DNA of 27,229 nucleotides. It comes from a virus. This document shows positions 2,037-17,240 of the stretch, in pieces (within the stretch, counting starts at the first letter, position 1; each line of letters opens with the position of its first letter). The notes below the pieces were generated by a model, which saw only the letters and a program-made list of their open reading frames with translations, did not search any database and was not told the DNA's origin. A program made the position numbers and the translations under genes. The stretch lies in IMG/VR virus record IMGVR_UViG_3300029309_000285, positions 1-27,229 of that record. One strand, 5' to 3'.

Positions 2037-4535
2037 TTATCTTTTAGGTCCTTTCAAGATTTTAACATCAGCCATTTTCATCATATCGTTCTGTATTTTG
2101 CCGGCTTGAGACATAGCTTGCTTTGTTAACGACGTATCAGCTCGTAATTCTGCTAATTCTTCGTTCTGTTCTAGCTTATCTTCTGTTAAATCTCTATCTT
2201 GAACCAATTTTGCTTTGTCAATATTGATTCTTTCGTCATCATATTGTTTTTTACGCTCATTTTCCATCGCTCTTAGGTCAACTTCACGTGATTTTAGTTT
2301 TAATAACGGGTCATTGTCAAAAGTAGAGGTAATTTTCTTCTCTTCTTTCATAAAATCTTCCGTCATTTCAGCAATCAACACAGCTTTTCTTGCTTCAACT
2401 GCTTGTGACATGACTTGTAGCTCGTTTGCAGCTTGTGGATTGTTAGGTGCCATCTGTTGTAGCTGTTGCATTGTCTGTAATTGCTCTCTAAATTCTAGTT
2501 GAATCTGTTCTTGAGCCATCAAACTAATGTGTTCTAGTATATTTTTTTGTAACGCAGCCATGACTGGTGGATTATTTCTAACCATATTCGTTGCCATAAA
2601 GTTTAAATGCGAAGTTATGTGTGCTCTATGGTCTTGACCAGGAAAAGCTTGGAAAGGTTTGCCTGCAAGTGCATCAATATTTTCTAACGCTGGGTCTTTT
2701 GGTGCATTAGGAGCAGGTGGTGGTAATATTGAGTCAATATTTTTTACACCAATTGCTTCGTACATGTTTCGATAAATATTATACATGTTGTGCATTCCAG
2801 GATTTGCTGTTGCAAGTTGTAATTCTGTTTGTGCAAGTGTAATTCTTTGCGACATAGAGAATATATTTGGATCTGCAACAGGAATAATATCTACTCTGTC
2901 ATCAAAATCTAATTGTTTAATTGTTCTTGCACCACCAACAACATCAAATGGATATTCTGGTGGTAAATATTTTGATACAATGTTTGCAAGTAATCTAAAT
3001 TCTTTTTTCATTGCAGCATATAATCTTTTATGTATTGCTGACATTACACGTGAACCACGTTCTAATAATGCAATCGTAGTTCCAACTGCTGCACCTTGAT
3101 TACCATCACCCACTTGCATTTCTGCAATGCTCGCGAATCTTTGACCAGCTTGTACAACAATACCTAATAATTGTAATAATGTTGGAGATGGTTCTTTGTA
3201 TGGTAATGGAAAGAATGCATCACGTAAGCTACCACCTGGTGCGTCGACATCCTTAAACTCACCGGGCTGTATTGGGGCAGCTTCATCTTGTACTCTCACT
3301 CCTCTTTGTTTAAATCCTGCAGGTAAATTTGATAACGTTCCTGCATCTAATAATTGACGGAGAGCAGACGTTGCCGTTCTGCTCAATCCGCCAATCATAT
3401 GAATGAGTCCGAAACCATAAAATCCTAGTCCTGGCAGAAATTTGAAGTGGACGAAGTATTGGATTTTATTTTTCTTCGGATCATCGGGCGCATAGTTCCT
3501 TCTGATAGAAAGAACTGTTCGGGTACTTTCATCGATAGTTACGATGTAGGGAAGTTTAATACCAGTCGGCTGACCGTCTGCTCCTACTTCCTCAAAACCT
3601 TCAAGGTCAAGATTAACATGACATTCAAGTAAAGTATAAACTGCTTGTGGTTTACCTGTAGCTTTAGTCCCTTCCAGCTCACGTTCTTTTTTAACAACGG
3701 GGTTTGTTTCAACCCGGCCCGGAGGTCCTAAATCTACATCACGGTAAAAACCAGAAACTTGTTGCTTACGCAATTCGTTCTCTGGCATTTTTATGACATG
3801 AATTATTGACTGTGCATCATCTAATGAGGTAGCTGTGTACGGTACAACTAATTCGTCGGCAGGAACAAATTTTGAAACTGCTCTTGCCATTGTTTGGTCA
3901 TAATAAATTTTTTTAAATGTTGATCCAGCTAATGGTAAATGAAATAACATAGAATCAAACTCTGGTTCGTATTCTTCCATCTCGTCCATAACAAGATAGT
4001 TCATGTAATCTTTTACTCTTTGTGCCTGTAAATCATTTGCTGGTGTTTGTACTCCAACAACTTGTGTTCTTACAGGACCATCACCTGGTAGTAATTCTTT
4101 GTAAGCTTGCGCTTGAAATTGTGTAACAGCTTCTGCTAGTACAGGGTGCGTGGCACCTGAAGCTCCTTGAAATGGTTCTGATCTATCTTGATACTTAAAT
4201 CCTAAAAGATCTAAACCATCACGATAACTTTGCTCCCATTCTTTTCTAGATGCTTTGTAATCGTTGTAATCACCAACCATATCATTACCAATCGGTTCTA
4301 AAATATCGTCGGGTAAAATATCTGCTAGGTTATCAAAATGATTTTCTGTTCCAGGTACATTTATAGCTCCCGGTTCAAAGTCAATTGTTGCGCCGCCATC
4401 TTCTTCTGGGGTAACCTCTATCGGTCCTTTTTCTACTTCCTCCTCTTTAACACTAACTTCTTCGATCTCCTCATCTGTTGGAATATCGAGTTTTGTTCTT
4501 GTGTTACTAGGGAGTCCTTTATCTATATCTGCCAT
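2037..4535 (-). CDS. Portal protein (head-tail connector)
   Basis: This 832-aa protein forms the dodecameric ring at the capsid vertex through which DNA is packaged and ejected. The N-terminal 90 residues are acidic and probably disordered. The region from about 100 (YRDGLDLLGFKYQDR, then FQGASGATHPVLAEA) matches portal proteins of marine tailed phages that I remember, including the LLPGDGPVRT segment. The C-terminal part (about 690-830) is Gln/Glu/Lys-rich with long helices, as in P22-type barrel portals. The length is also in the P22-like range. AGGAG lies 5 nt before the ATG. It follows the terminase and two glycine-motif proteins, as expected for a packaging/head module. Confidence 0.85.
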   Translation of the reverse strand: MADIDKGLPSNTRTKLDIPTDEEIEEVSVKEEEVEKGPIEVTPEEDGGATIDFEPGAINVPGTENHFDNLADILPDDILEPIGNDMVGDYNDYKASRKEWEQSYRDGLDLLGFKYQDRSEPFQGASGATHPVLAEAVTQFQAQAYKELLPGDGPVRTQVVGVQTPANDLQAQRVKDYMNYLVMDEMEEYEPEFDSMLFHLPLAGSTFKKIYYDQTMARAVSKFVPADELVVPYTATSLDDAQSIIHVIKMPENELRKQQVSGFYRDVDLGPPGRVETNPVVKKERELEGTKATGKPQAVYTLLECHVNLDLEGFEEVGADGQPTGIKLPYIVTIDESTRTVLSIRRNYAPDDPKKNKIQYFVHFKFLPGLGFYGFGLIHMIGGLSRTATSALRQLLDAGTLSNLPAGFKQRGVRVQDEAAPIQPGEFKDVDAPGGSLRDAFFPLPYKEPSPTLLQLLGIVVQAGQRFASIAEMQVGDGNQGAAVGTTIALLERGSRVMSAIHKRLYAAMKKEFRLLANIVSKYLPPEYPFDVVGGARTIKQLDFDDRVDIIPVADPNIFSMSQRITLAQTELQLATANPGMHNMYNIYRNMYEAIGVKNIDSILPPPAPNAPKDPALENIDALAGKPFQAFPGQDHRAHITSHLNFMATNMVRNNPPVMAALQKNILEHISLMAQEQIQLEFREQLQTMQQLQQMAPNNPQAANELQVMSQAVEARKAVLIAEMTEDFMKEEKKITSTFDNDPLLKLKSREVDLRAMENERKKQYDDERINIDKAKLVQDRDLTEDKLEQNEELAELRADTSLTKQAMSQAGKIQNDMMKMADVKILKGPKR

Positions 4536-11700: not shown

Positions 11701-11737
11701 TTGTCCTCTTTCTTTTTTATTTGTTTGCATTGATTTG

Positions 11738-11776
11738 AAATTATCACTTGACAAAAGGATTGTCAAGTATTATATA
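11738..11776. promoter_or_regulatory. Symmetrical bidirectional promoter with palindromic operator
   Basis: Rightward: TTGACA (11748-11753), 17 nt, TATATA (11771-11776). Leftward: TTGACA (11766-11761), then TAATTT after 17 nt (or GATAAT after 15). The two -35 boxes are the halves of a perfect inverted repeat, ACTTGACAA / TTGTCAAGT with 5 nt between (11746-11768). Each -35 lies inside the other promoter's spacer, so only one polymerase can bind at a time. The rightward arm would start the structured RNA at about 11783; the leftward arm drives the 325-aa gene. Confidence 0.65.
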
Positions 11777-11921
11777 GGATTAACTATTTGTTAAGTTAAG
11801 TTAAACCACCTCTGGCAATTGTAAGACCTCGTTTCTGGTTTCCGGTCGATAAACTTGTCAACCAGTGGGACAACTTCTAGTTGTGGTTTGGGATTATCTC
11901 TCCCACGTTTCTACAACTAGA

Positions 11922-12019
11922 ACTGATCCCTGGACATGTGGCACTGGATACAGTGATAGGCCCTGGCCGGCTAGTAAACAATAGACTCCGGGCCTCATTC
12001 CATATGTCCTGGGATCAGT
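11922..12019 (+). repeat. Long-stem domain 1 of the structured RNA
   Basis: Arms 11922-11941 and 12000-12019 form a 20-bp stem (ACTGATCCCTGGACATGTGG on the left). The only non-Watson-Crick positions are T-T at pair 10 (11931/12010) and G-T at pair 17. The interior holds CACTG-GATA-CAGTG (11942-11955) and a second hairpin closed by AGGCCC/GGGCCT (11958-11963/11990-11995), giving a three-way junction. Confidence 0.7.
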
Positions 12020-12074
12020 GTGAGAAGAGTTTGATCAACTCGTGATGGCCCGAGGCGGGCGCTCTACACTGATC

Positions 12075-12138
12075 ACTGATCCCTGGTTTCTTCCATATAC
12101 TAGCTTAACCATGGAGGCGGGAGAAACCTGGGATCAGT
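12075..12138 (+). repeat. Long-stem domain 2 of the structured RNA
   Basis: Arms 12075-12094 and 12119-12138 form a 20-bp stem starting ACTGATCCCTGG, with T-T at pair 10 (12084/12129) and T-G at pair 18. The upper half (GGTTTCTTCC) differs from domain 1 on both arms while pairing is kept. The apical loop is 24 nt. It is preceded by an extra ACTGATC copy. Confidence 0.7.
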
Positions 12139-12247
12139 CATTAATGACTGTGAGAGTAAACACTATAACACGGCGGGCGCTTAAGGGATCCCCGAATGTT
12201 GACTGAAGGACAGGGCGTCAACCCCCCGCGTAGCATAGTGACTGATC

Positions 12248-12370
12248 ACTGATCTCTGATCTCATTGTTCGACCGGTGAGTTCCTGCGATATGCTTACAA
12301 CTCGCAAGGTTGTAAGGTCCTCGAAAGAGCGCAGAGGAAACGTACAAGTTCGATGAGATCTGAGATCAGT
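12248..12370 (+). repeat. Long-stem domain 3 of the structured RNA
   Basis: Arms 12248-12267 and 12351-12370 form a 20-bp stem starting ACTGATCTCTGATC, with T-T at pair 10 (12257/12361) and T-G at pair 19. Pair 8 is T-A instead of C-G, a compensated change against domains 1 and 2. Inside are CTTACAAC/GTTGTAAG with a 7-nt loop (12294-12316), CTC-GAAA-GAG with a GNRA tetraloop (12320-12329), and a TTCC-TGCG stem with a bulge. An extra ACTGATC precedes it. Confidence 0.7.
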
Positions 12371-12446
12371 TGTGATTACAGGCGTGGCAGCAAGCAGAAG
12401 CTGTAATTGAGAATGCTACGTTGCGCGACAGCTGGTCTATTGTGGC

Positions 12447-12469
12447 CCGGGGCTCTTCGGTGGTTTTTT
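12447..12469 (+). terminator. Terminator-like hairpin with T6 at the end of the structured RNA
   Basis: CCGGG and TTCGG around a GCTC loop (12447-12460, two G-U pairs) are followed by TGG and six Ts (12464-12469). It could end the rightward RNA before the GP88 promoter. The stem is short, so its strength is uncertain. The TAATCACA that closes the last domain overlaps its end. Confidence 0.45.
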
Positions 12470-12487
12470 AATCACAGCAACAGGCCG

Positions 12488-12522
12488 CAAGCTCCAAGCT
12501 GCAAGCTTCAAGCTTGACAAGA
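12488..12522. repeat. Heptamer array 1 (CAAGCNN, 4 units)
   Basis: CAAGC starts at 12488, 12495, 12502 and 12509, exactly 7 nt apart, with variable last two bases (TC, TG, TT, TT). A degenerate CAAGA follows at 12518. The final unit supplies part of the -35 box of the GP88 promoter. The same unit forms the larger array after GP88. Confidence 0.85.
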
Positions 12523-12542
12523 AAGGATTATAGGATTATAAA
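12514..12542 (+). promoter_or_regulatory. Promoter of the GP88 gene, likely leaderless
   Basis: TTGACA (12514-12519), a 17-nt spacer containing TAGGAT, and TATAAA (12537-12542) form a near-consensus promoter. Only GGATGT separates the -10 box from the ATG at 12549, so the transcript should begin at or very near the start codon. The -35 box is built from the last heptamer unit, which links the array to expression of the gene. Confidence 0.65.
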
Positions 12543-12548
12543 GGATGT

Positions 12549-13151
12549 ATGAATACTAAAGAAGCATTAAAAATTATAGGCGGCAGCCTGAGCAAACCTT
12601 CAAAGATGCCAGGATGGTCAATAGGTTTACCAGCCAAGGAATGCAAGACAGGCGGCAAGCTGCAAGCGGTCCCCGGTTCAGTATGTTATGACTGCTACGC
12701 ATTAAAAGGTTGTTACGTGTTCAAGGTTGTTCAGGATGCACAGTACCGGAGACTGGCAGCCATCAAGAGCCCGGAATGGGTTCAGGCCATGGCACACCTA
12801 ATCAATAGCAAAAAGCCGGATGTATTTCGATGGCATGACAGCGGAGACGTCCAGGACCCTGAGCACTTAAACAAAATTTATCAAGTTTGCAGGTTAACAC
12901 CTAGCAAGCGTCACTGGCTCCCGACTCGTGAAGCATGGATCAAAGCTCACCTGACAGGCAAGCCAGACAATTTAGTCATACGATTTAGCGCGCCCATGGT
13001 AGACCAGCGGGCGCCTCAGTCGTGGCCCAACTCTTCAGAGGTGGTTAGTTCAGGGGCCAGCTGTCCAGCTGCAAAACAAGACAATGAATGCCGTGACTGC
13101 AGGGCCTGTTGGGACAGCTCAATTAAAACAATTTCATATGGGAAACATTGA
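12549..13151 (+). CDS. GP88-family protein
   Basis: The 200-aa protein matches the 'gene product 88' family named after mycobacteriophage L5 gp88. Family hallmarks are LSKPSKMPGWSIGLPA (14-29), an N-terminal cysteine group with CYDCYALKGCY (about 46-56), FRWHDSGDVQD (about 93-103) and RHWLPTRE (about 121-128), with further Cys near the C-terminus (CRDCRAC). The Cys set suggests bound metal or an iron-sulfur cluster, but the activity is unknown. It stands on the plus strand between leftward genes, looks richer in G+C, and is flanked by CAAGC heptamer arrays; two further CAAGC units 7 nt apart occur inside it at 12656 and 12663. This suggests that it came in as part of a cassette. Confidence 0.85.
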   Translation: MNTKEALKIIGGSLSKPSKMPGWSIGLPAKECKTGGKLQAVPGSVCYDCYALKGCYVFKVVQDAQYRRLAAIKSPEWVQAMAHLINSKKPDVFRWHDSGDVQDPEHLNKIYQVCRLTPSKRHWLPTREAWIKAHLTGKPDNLVIRFSAPMVDQRAPQSWPNSSEVVSSGASCPAAKQDNECRDCRACWDSSIKTISYGKH

Positions 13152-16343: not shown

Positions 16344-16483
16344 AATTTTTTCTTTAGCTCCCGGATATAGTCCTCTTCTTCTTTACGATTATTATCTCGA
16401 ACAATCGCAGCTTGTTTACGCCAAGCCCAAGCATTAAGCTGACCAGCCCAACCCATTATCCATAAATAAAATTTTAATTTCAT
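16340..16483 (-). CDS. 47-aa small protein with aromatic N-terminal helix
   Basis: It begins MKLKFYLWIMGWAGQLNAWA, a Trp-rich hydrophobic or amphipathic helix, followed by a charged helix ending in RELKKKL. The first 20 residues could lie in or on the membrane. Both ends overlap neighbours by the ATGA pattern (upstream LAGLIDADG stop, downstream exonuclease start), which strongly suggests that it is translated. No family is recognised. A small membrane anchor or modulator would fit the structure. Confidence 0.6.
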   Translation of the reverse strand: MKLKFYLWIMGWAGQLNAWAWRKQAAIVRDNNRKEEEDYIRELKKKL

Positions 16484-16914
16484 TCTAAACTCATCCTAAT
16501 TTTATAATCATCGAGACTAACCACTTTACCATCAAACACTTGATCTGGGGTATAGTGATCTATTATCTTTTCAACCTTTTCTAATTTAGTTTTAGACCAA
16601 GGCCAAATTAATTTACATACCCTGTATGCATCTCTAAATGTACAACGCCATTTGTATTGCATCAAGTATTTTGTACCATCTTTACGTAAACCTTTTCTTG
16701 GTTTCTTGACTACAGTTCCGCAACCCAATACTTCGTGGACCCATCGTATAACCATCTCATCGGTCATGGTTATTTCCATACTAATTCGTTGTGACATGGA
16801 AGTTCGATAACCTTTACCATTGTGTTTCTTTTTCTTTTCAGGTCGTCTAGCATAATAAATACTACCCTCACCATCAAAGAGTCCTGCGATATACGCAGCA
16901 TCTTCATTTGTCAT
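16480..16914 (-). CDS. LAGLIDADG homing endonuclease
   Basis: The 144-aa protein has one LAGLIDADG-type motif near its N-terminus (AAYIAGLFDGEGSIY, about 6-20), with the acidic catalytic residue in the GLFDGEG part. It continues with a beta/alpha region carrying EITMTDEMVIRWVHEVLGCGTV and ends with a helical part. Single-motif enzymes work as homodimers and cut long sites to spread their own gene. It lies freestanding between a 27-aa membrane peptide and a 47-aa protein and is stitched in by overlaps on both sides; GAGGAAAT precedes the ATG. It is not inside an intron or intein that I can see. Confidence 0.8.
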   Translation of the reverse strand: MTNEDAAYIAGLFDGEGSIYYARRPEKKKKHNGKGYRTSMSQRISMEITMTDEMVIRWVHEVLGCGTVVKKPRKGLRKDGTKYLMQYKWRCTFRDAYRVCKLIWPWSKTKLEKVEKIIDHYTPDQVFDGKVVSLDDYKIRMSLE

Positions 16915-16988: not shown

Positions 16989-17240
16989 TTAACCTCCATG
17001 CTTTCCGTGCACGTACCGGCATGAAGGCAAAGGCTCCACACCTCCACGGTTACTTACCGCTTCGTCGGTTGCCGTACAGGGACTAGCGCTAGGCTTTGTA
17101 TGGACGGAGGTCCTTTTCACATCGTTATTTTTTATAATCCATCGAACTGTTGCAGTCGCTGGATCGAATCCATCAAACTCAAACTTAGTGCAGCTTGGCA
17201 GAAATACCATCGTCAATAAGATTACCATCAACAGTCTCAT
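16989..17240 (-). CDS. Small predicted lipoprotein
   Basis: The 83-aa protein starts MRLLMVILLTMVFLPSCTKF: a short hydrophobic signal with a lipobox-like LPSC, predicting lipid attachment at Cys17. It continues DGFDPATATVRW and a Ser/Thr/Lys-rich region with two Cys (SPCTATDEA and LPSCRY). I recall marine phage lipoproteins with an FDGFDP motif but no function. A GGAGAATTTT leader supports the ATG at 17240; the frame is open further upstream. It overlaps the zinc-finger gene by 56 bases. Spanin, superinfection-exclusion or surface roles are possible but not supported. Confidence 0.6.
   Translation of the reverse strand: MRLLMVILLTMVFLPSCTKFEFDGFDPATATVRWIIKNNDVKRTSVHTKPSASPCTATDEAVSNRGGVEPLPSCRYVHGKHGG

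Follow-up and report, generated by a model that had tools for sequence, protein, structure and literature searches.

A putative modular RNA of pelagiphages with conserved U-U stems and polymorphic palindromic loops that may mediate self-association

What could a noncoding stretch of phage DNA encode when one imperfect stem is repeated in it three times? The window (the whole stretch of DNA analysed, 27,229 nt) is a 27-kb virus record with genes for terminase, portal, DNA polymerase, helicase, primase and exonuclease. Its closest isolate at the DNA level is the Pelagibacter phage HTVC027P, and its source is an HTVC027P-like pelagiphage. The region carrying the stems (11783-12470) is intergenic and noncoding, has a G+C content above that of its left-hand neighbours, and the ORF search of the window found no frame of at least 60 aa between 11795 and 12548. 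It is followed by a plus-strand GP88-family gene (PF17338, phrog_1392; 12549-13151), which also stands after the array in almost every relative. Further along the window, the terminase small subunit (PF03592; 14162-14830, plus strand) lies a few kb from the minus-strand large subunit, as it does in HTVC027P, and a LAGLIDADG endonuclease-like gene (16480-16914, minus strand) scored above the cut-off of PF00961.

The initial annotation described three stems here with a U-U mismatch at the tenth pair. All three were found on the plus strand where it had placed them: module 1 at 11922-12019 (arms 11922-11941 and 12000-12019), module 2 at 12075-12138 (arms 12075-12094 and 12119-12138) and module 3 at 12248-12370 (arms 12248-12267 and 12351-12370), the last having a long branched interior that contains ACCGGT at 12272-12277. 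Each stem has nine standard pairs and T-T at position 10; pairs 11-20 follow, one of which (17, 18 or 19) is a G-T wobble, and pair 8 is C-G, C-G and T-A across the three, as had been described. The stems exceed chance, since a search of 11783-12470 for helices with 19-position arms and at least 18 standard pairs returned just these three, while 20 dinucleotide shuffles gave one match in total; within the window, matches to the foot pattern are confined to this region. Two details of the earlier description are revised here. The inner ten pairs are not wholly unrelated between stems, pair 11 being G-C in all three and pair 12 being G-C, G-C and A-T, and the helix spans 19 positions in relatives instead of 20.

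A promoter-like element, TTGACA-17 nt-TATATA (11748-11776, plus strand), is the candidate promoter of the region; it is absent from the results of the consensus promoter scan on account of the final A of its second hexamer. Its -35 box lies within a perfect inverted repeat, CTTGACAA-AAGGA-TTGTCAAG (11747-11767), which is kept in relatives and is operator-like, suggestive of a repressor site, and the block at 11705-11781 has 74-95% identity in 65 other loci. The element precedes a putative discrete noncoding RNA of ~680 nt (11783-12469, plus strand), the ends of which pair (AACCACC at 11804-11810 with GGTGGTT at 12459-12465) and which has a terminator-like site at 12447-12460 and a T run at its 3' end; the array is probably transcribed as one unit. 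Folding of the plus strand gave a minimum free energy of -262.9 for the unit (z -6.4 against shuffles); the minus strand also folds better than shuffles (z -5.8), and folding energy alone therefore cannot tell the strand. In RNA-seq of HTVC027P, gp33 and gp34 form their own cluster, high at 6-9 h (PMC12753301). Here gp33 is the GP88 gene and gp34 the small ORF just 3' of the array, so this cluster is consistent with a rightward unit including a putative array transcript, though it does not prove the latter because gp34 could be driven by a promoter of its own.

The gp34 ORF of HTVC027P, located between the array and GP88 (positions 4390-4530 of its locus, L002), carries the label Pdase_C33_assoc in the literature. 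Small ORFs like it recur 3' of other arrays, including ones reading ...INHWRWLE..., and the peptidase label looks doubtful. Additionally, a run of 7-nt repeats CAAGCTN, followed by a second promoter-like element (TTGACA-17-TATAAA), is found at 12488-12542 of the window, just 5' of the GP88 gene; both are retained in nearly every related locus, with frequent duplication inside arrays, and the repeats resemble a repeated activator site.

Relatives were sampled in two ways. Using the GP88 gene as an anchor, 80 IMG/VR loci were collected without use of the stem motif, and pattern scans, which required T-T, gave at least 320 further loci. The promoter block and the GP88 gene are kept in all GP88-anchored loci of sufficient length, the stretch from one to the other measuring ~330 to 1,200 nt. 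Hundreds of related marine phage contigs carry the U-U stem, nearly always immediately 5' of a GP88-type gene, which lies at most 2 kb downstream on the same strand in 256 of the 267 judgeable U-U loci among the matches listed. One rearranged locus (L156, 4380-5420) has U-U modules on both strands flanking a promoter, and no GP88 gene was found in its contig. The stem pattern had no match when one genome was taken for each of 84,980 species of bacteria and archaea. A DNA search of 50,697 phage records with one U-U module likewise gave no match, which indicates that the modules are too variable for a DNA search and that isolates are few.

Across relatives, the consensus stem has 19 positions: nine pairs, U-U and nine pairs. 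Among the 293 distinct oriented modules in the matches listed, pairs 16-19 were formed in 97, 96, 94 and 82%, against 44, 45, 61 and 44% expected with shuffled partners, whereas pair 20 was formed in 60% and the chance level was reached from about pair 21. Covariation is strong at pairs 15-19, and all six standard pair types were seen at pair 19 in these modules. Over pairs 8-19 of the modules listed, the transcript strand has 266 G-U against 12 A-C (22:1), pairs 15 and 18 having G-T very often, and this excess identifies the transcript strand as the folded strand, folding as RNA. The frequency of U-U was taken from the GP88-anchored, motif-independent set only, because the scan patterns fixed T-T: position 10 is U-U in 55 of 63 stems, and the remaining eight have T-A (5), A-T (2) or G-C (1), with no other mismatch. 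The motif is 5'-CUG/5'-CUG, and the C-G and G-C pairs on either side of the mismatch hardly vary. Homologues with covarying arms and a retained U-U, from which the initial annotation had expected support, thus exist. Its repeated rightward RNA module is strongly supported, and its conserved U-U holds in a weaker form, as a feature that is favoured and not essential, given the eight stems with an ordinary pair.

The initial annotation went further and preferred a model in which a protein or small ligand binds the modules at the U-U site, the heads being secondary. The restriction of position 10 to U-U or a standard pair in the motif-independent set, between almost invariant neighbours, is in favour of such binding, but the stems lacking U-U count against it and it leaves unexplained the palindromes and their compensated switching (below), so this model is judged unlikely. 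The 5'-CUG/5'-CUG motif may be a mild helix irregularity that only tunes flexibility or prevents a perfect RNase III substrate; one guess is that it gives a protein a docking place or makes the helix softer.

The strongest functional signal lies in the loops, overlooked in the initial annotation, which are self-complementary, hypervariable and compensated. The heads vary from module to module, and 122 loop clusters with <60% identity were collected among the matches listed. In 83 unrelated loops there were 34 palindromes of at least 8 nt, compared with 11.4 ± 3.2 expected from dinucleotide shuffles, and 54 loops had a palindrome of at least 6 nt (34 ± 3.9 expected). A further 39 unrelated loops, taken from other scans and without any 9-mer in common with the first set, gave 20 palindromes of at least 8 nt (6.5 ± 2.4 expected) and 30 loops with one of at least 6 nt (19.5 ± 2.9). 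With 4-nt arms, the enrichment has a z of 9 at gap 0 and of at most 2.5 at gaps 1-14, and its limitation to gap 0 means that these are not small hairpins. Spacers between U-U modules are weakly enriched (65 palindromes of at least 8 nt against 50 ± 7), and in the control gene GP88 such palindromes are depleted (135 against 172); the 6-nt count of GP88 is inflated by homologous copies, hence the reliance on 8 nt and on non-redundant sets. A perfect palindrome of at least 6 nt is lacking in 38 of the 122 unrelated loops (~31%), among them the U-U stem loop of HTVC027P.

The palindromes are also predicted to be accessible. Their mean unpaired probability is modestly higher than that of other loop bases (0.55 vs 0.47), their opening cost is lower than that of other windows of the same loop (2.87 vs 3.66 kcal/mol, P = 3e-4), and shuffling the loops weakens the predicted self-duplexes (P = 2e-6), these duplex and opening energies taking no account of three-dimensional geometry. 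Among different loops of one array there is no excess of pairing (4.96 vs 4.97 nt), which indicates that pairing would be like-with-like, and a palindrome is shared in 1.9% of unrelated loop pairs.

Comparison of related loops showed that palindromes change and remain palindromes. The palindrome slot of module 1 (11965-11972, plus strand) lies in a scaffold GCCCT-[N8]-NGTAAACAAT; the window allele, GGCCGGCT, has a GCCGGC core with G-U closing pairs in an RNA-RNA duplex, and the six other alleles (GGTGCACC, GGCTAGCC, GGTCGACC, GCCTAGGC, GTCCGGAC and GTTCGAAC) are all perfect palindromes. The apical loop of module 2, AACCATGG, presents CCATGG (12109-12114, plus strand; mean unpaired probability 0.86), and a homologue of this loop elsewhere has the compensated CTATAG. 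A slot in a further module, C (12185-12192, plus strand), holds GGGATCCC in the window and GGGTACCC or GAGATCTC in other alleles, and 23 of the 26 versions of a third scaffold, CTATTAGTG...GTGTGAAGAG, contain a palindrome. Furthermore, loops that are 90-94% identical differ only or mainly in a palindrome that is still perfect: TCGATCGA/TCGGCCGA and TCCGGA/TCTAGA (both in loops 94% identical), ACCTGTACAGGT/ACCTTGCAAGGT and CACTAGTG/CACATGTG; the module 1 alleles GGTGCACC/GGCTAGCC likewise stand in nearly identical loops. The four central bases change together at a fixed slot. Because adjacent bases cannot pair within one strand, such compensated gapless palindromes speak for pairing of one copy of the RNA with another. 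The compensation rule is not absolute, as the related loops compared include 26 with a broken or misaligned palindrome beside 16 changed yet palindromic and 25 unchanged. Substituted sites of close pairs are only mildly different in frequency inside and outside palindromes (59/843 vs 137/2705), and diversifying selection on the loops is suggested by swaps, not by rates.

Self-complementarity could also be a mutational by-product of template switching at inverted repeats (quasipalindrome correction) without selection, a process that would account for frequent compensated double changes and for the few stems with a Watson-Crick pair in place of U-U. The same correction would erase T-T and G-T, which are instead kept (T-T in 55/63, G-T at pairs 15 and 18), the enriched palindromes are gapless and unable to template a hairpin, and their four central bases switch jointly at a fixed slot; this origin is thus quite improbable. 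Constant stems with ~120 unrelated loops would likewise suit a CRISPR-like repertoire, in which the loops act as antisense or spacer-like guides that target the host or other phages. This is very improbable: guides predict no palindromes, and in 2.76 Mb of related phage DNA the loops had 18 matches outside arrays against 20 for reversed control loops, several of the 18 being probably array copies with weak feet.

Between and beside the stems, the unit has further modules. Module A (11867-11930, plus strand), with the hairpin TCTAGTTGT (11876-11884)/ACAACTAGA (11913-11921) directly 5' of stem 1, recurs in relatives with a different inner sequence. Motif D, between modules (12028-12062, plus strand), consists of GAGTTTGATCAACTC and GCCC-GAGGC-GGGC hairpins, with GAGATTGATCATCTT and GGGAC-GAGGC-GTCC as its counterparts in relatives. 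Module C (12139-12247, plus strand) is common to HTVC027P and others, 12128-12248 having 88.5% identity to HTVC027P. Module B (12371-12432, plus strand) is an H-type pseudoknot with helices 12374-12381/12401-12408 and 12383-12389/12414-12420; all of its pairs (100%) are formed in 12 distinct sequences, six pairs have changed on both sides, and its score was reached by 0 of 500 shuffles. Arrays mostly have one to four U-U stems plus recurrent modules. Two otherwise near-identical loci (L129 and L362) have the same GP88 gene and match upstream; between them one U-U module has been replaced together with the motif following it, the change beginning within the constant foot. Arrays of very close genomes gave just nine pairs for comparison, insufficient for a rate.

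The Flavobacterium-1 RNA (RF02976) is carried as a module by the HTVC027P unit (90.2 bits, cut-off 58.9), and matches of full strength were found in HTVC027P and three other related records. The array of the window lacks it, 11783-12470 having no Rfam match at permissive thresholds, RF02976 included. Elsewhere in the window, a weak RF02976 match lies at 16992-17116 on the minus strand (33 bits against 58.9; E 1.5e-4 for the stretch), and CGTGCACG lies close to the 3' hairpin of this match.

Foot-to-foot exchange of modules of ~50-150 nt, with constant feet and variable tips, recalls integron attC sites, and a folded single-stranded DNA could also explain the G-T bias. The stems might then be attC-like recombination sites and the array a cassette system, or the palindromes might be DNA-level sites of dimeric proteins for restriction or recombination. 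No single enzyme fits the palindromes, 49 of the 64 possible palindromic hexamers being used among the matches listed, and the predicted fold of the unit as a whole is much more stable than that of its shuffles and includes a covarying H-type pseudoknot. Moreover, the feet have no known resemblance to attC boxes, the evidence is of RNA type and there are no gene cassettes of the attC kind. A DNA-level explanation is accordingly held to be rather improbable.

It is proposed here, with a probability of roughly 70%, that 11783-12469 encodes a discrete, structured phage RNA array that self-associates through sequence-specific symmetric kissing loops on U-U struts. The stems and their strand, the covariation, the palindrome enrichment, the compensated slots and the module exchange are read directly from the sequence comparisons, whereas pairing between molecules and assembly of the unit RNA are what we infer from them. 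The U-U stem would be an exchangeable standard strut (9 bp, U-U, 9 bp) bearing a hypervariable head, and the heads and several other modules would expose self-complementary loops of 6-8 nt. Like RNAs may then pair through symmetric kissing loops to form dimers; as one molecule would bear several of these loops, larger assemblies could form too. Loop alleles would shift by compensated substitution and by whole-module swap between constant feet, so that the RNA of each phage lineage would recognise itself and rarely the RNA of relatives. A broader reading, natural polymorphic RNA self-recognition, is offered only tentatively: a lineage-specific, multivalent kissing-loop body (cage, network or condensate), orthogonal to those of phages competing within one cell and diversifying by palindrome switching and module exchange. 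As to the purpose of assembly, one guess is that it sequesters a host or phage factor, another that the RNA bodies of co-infecting phages are thereby kept separate.

The GOLLD and ROOL RNAs often, though not always, occur near phage tRNA genes; no tRNA gene was found in the window, and cmscan gave no GOLLD or ROOL match in the whole window (E <= 5) or in 14 related loci (E <= 0.5). Like the unit, they are strongly structured phage-encoded noncoding RNAs of ~660-800 nt with symmetric kissing loops (PMC12286853), which in the unit are predicted. Palindrome switching in OLE L9.3 and GOLLD L21a supported intermolecular symmetric kissing loops beside cryo-EM structures (PMC12286853), and the evidence for the unit is of the same kind, its loop palindromes covarying as palindromes, as expected of a homo-oligomeric symmetric kissing-loop RNA. 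The unit differs in lacking a fixed global architecture and nearby tRNAs, in its variable number and order of modules, and in palindromes that are polymorphic over most possible sequences. The dimer initiation loops of HIV-1 (DIS) and other retroviruses have 6-nt palindromic apical loops with flanking purines, to which AACCATGG of the window is similar (PMC5874298, PMC11567899). They carry one or a few fixed palindromes on a genome RNA, whereas in the unit the alleles are many and belong to a putative noncoding RNA encoded by a DNA phage. The pRNA of phi29 is a short packaging-motor RNA with loops that are complementary in pairs and not palindromic. It resembles the proposed unit as a phage RNA self-assembling by loop-loop pairing and differs from it in the absence of palindromic loops; a packaging role of the unit would be conjectural, though terminase genes are close by. 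Designed RNA nanostars, whose stem arms end in palindromic kissing loops orthogonal to one another, form condensates that are likewise orthogonal (PMC11567899) and are man-made, whereas the unit is natural; no natural counterpart was found in the literature searched. The search of freely available full-text papers gave no description of the unit. The proposed mechanism resembles that of GOLLD, ROOL and retroviral dimer loops; for the organisation, exchangeable modules with polymorphic palindromes, we know of no counterpart.

To our knowledge, few natural RNAs self-assemble, and the role of the phage ones is unexplained. The hundreds of natural variants of this unit point to selection for self-pairing and, apparently, for changed specificity, and the pattern of alleles suggests a reason for self-recognition, namely competition or co-infection, on which GOLLD and ROOL give no information. 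A version is carried by the cultured pair of HTVC027P on HTCC1062, with published infection RNA-seq, so that the idea is testable now. If true, it would give designed orthogonal kissing-loop condensates a precedent in nature, found in phages that infect SAR11, the most abundant bacteria of the sea.
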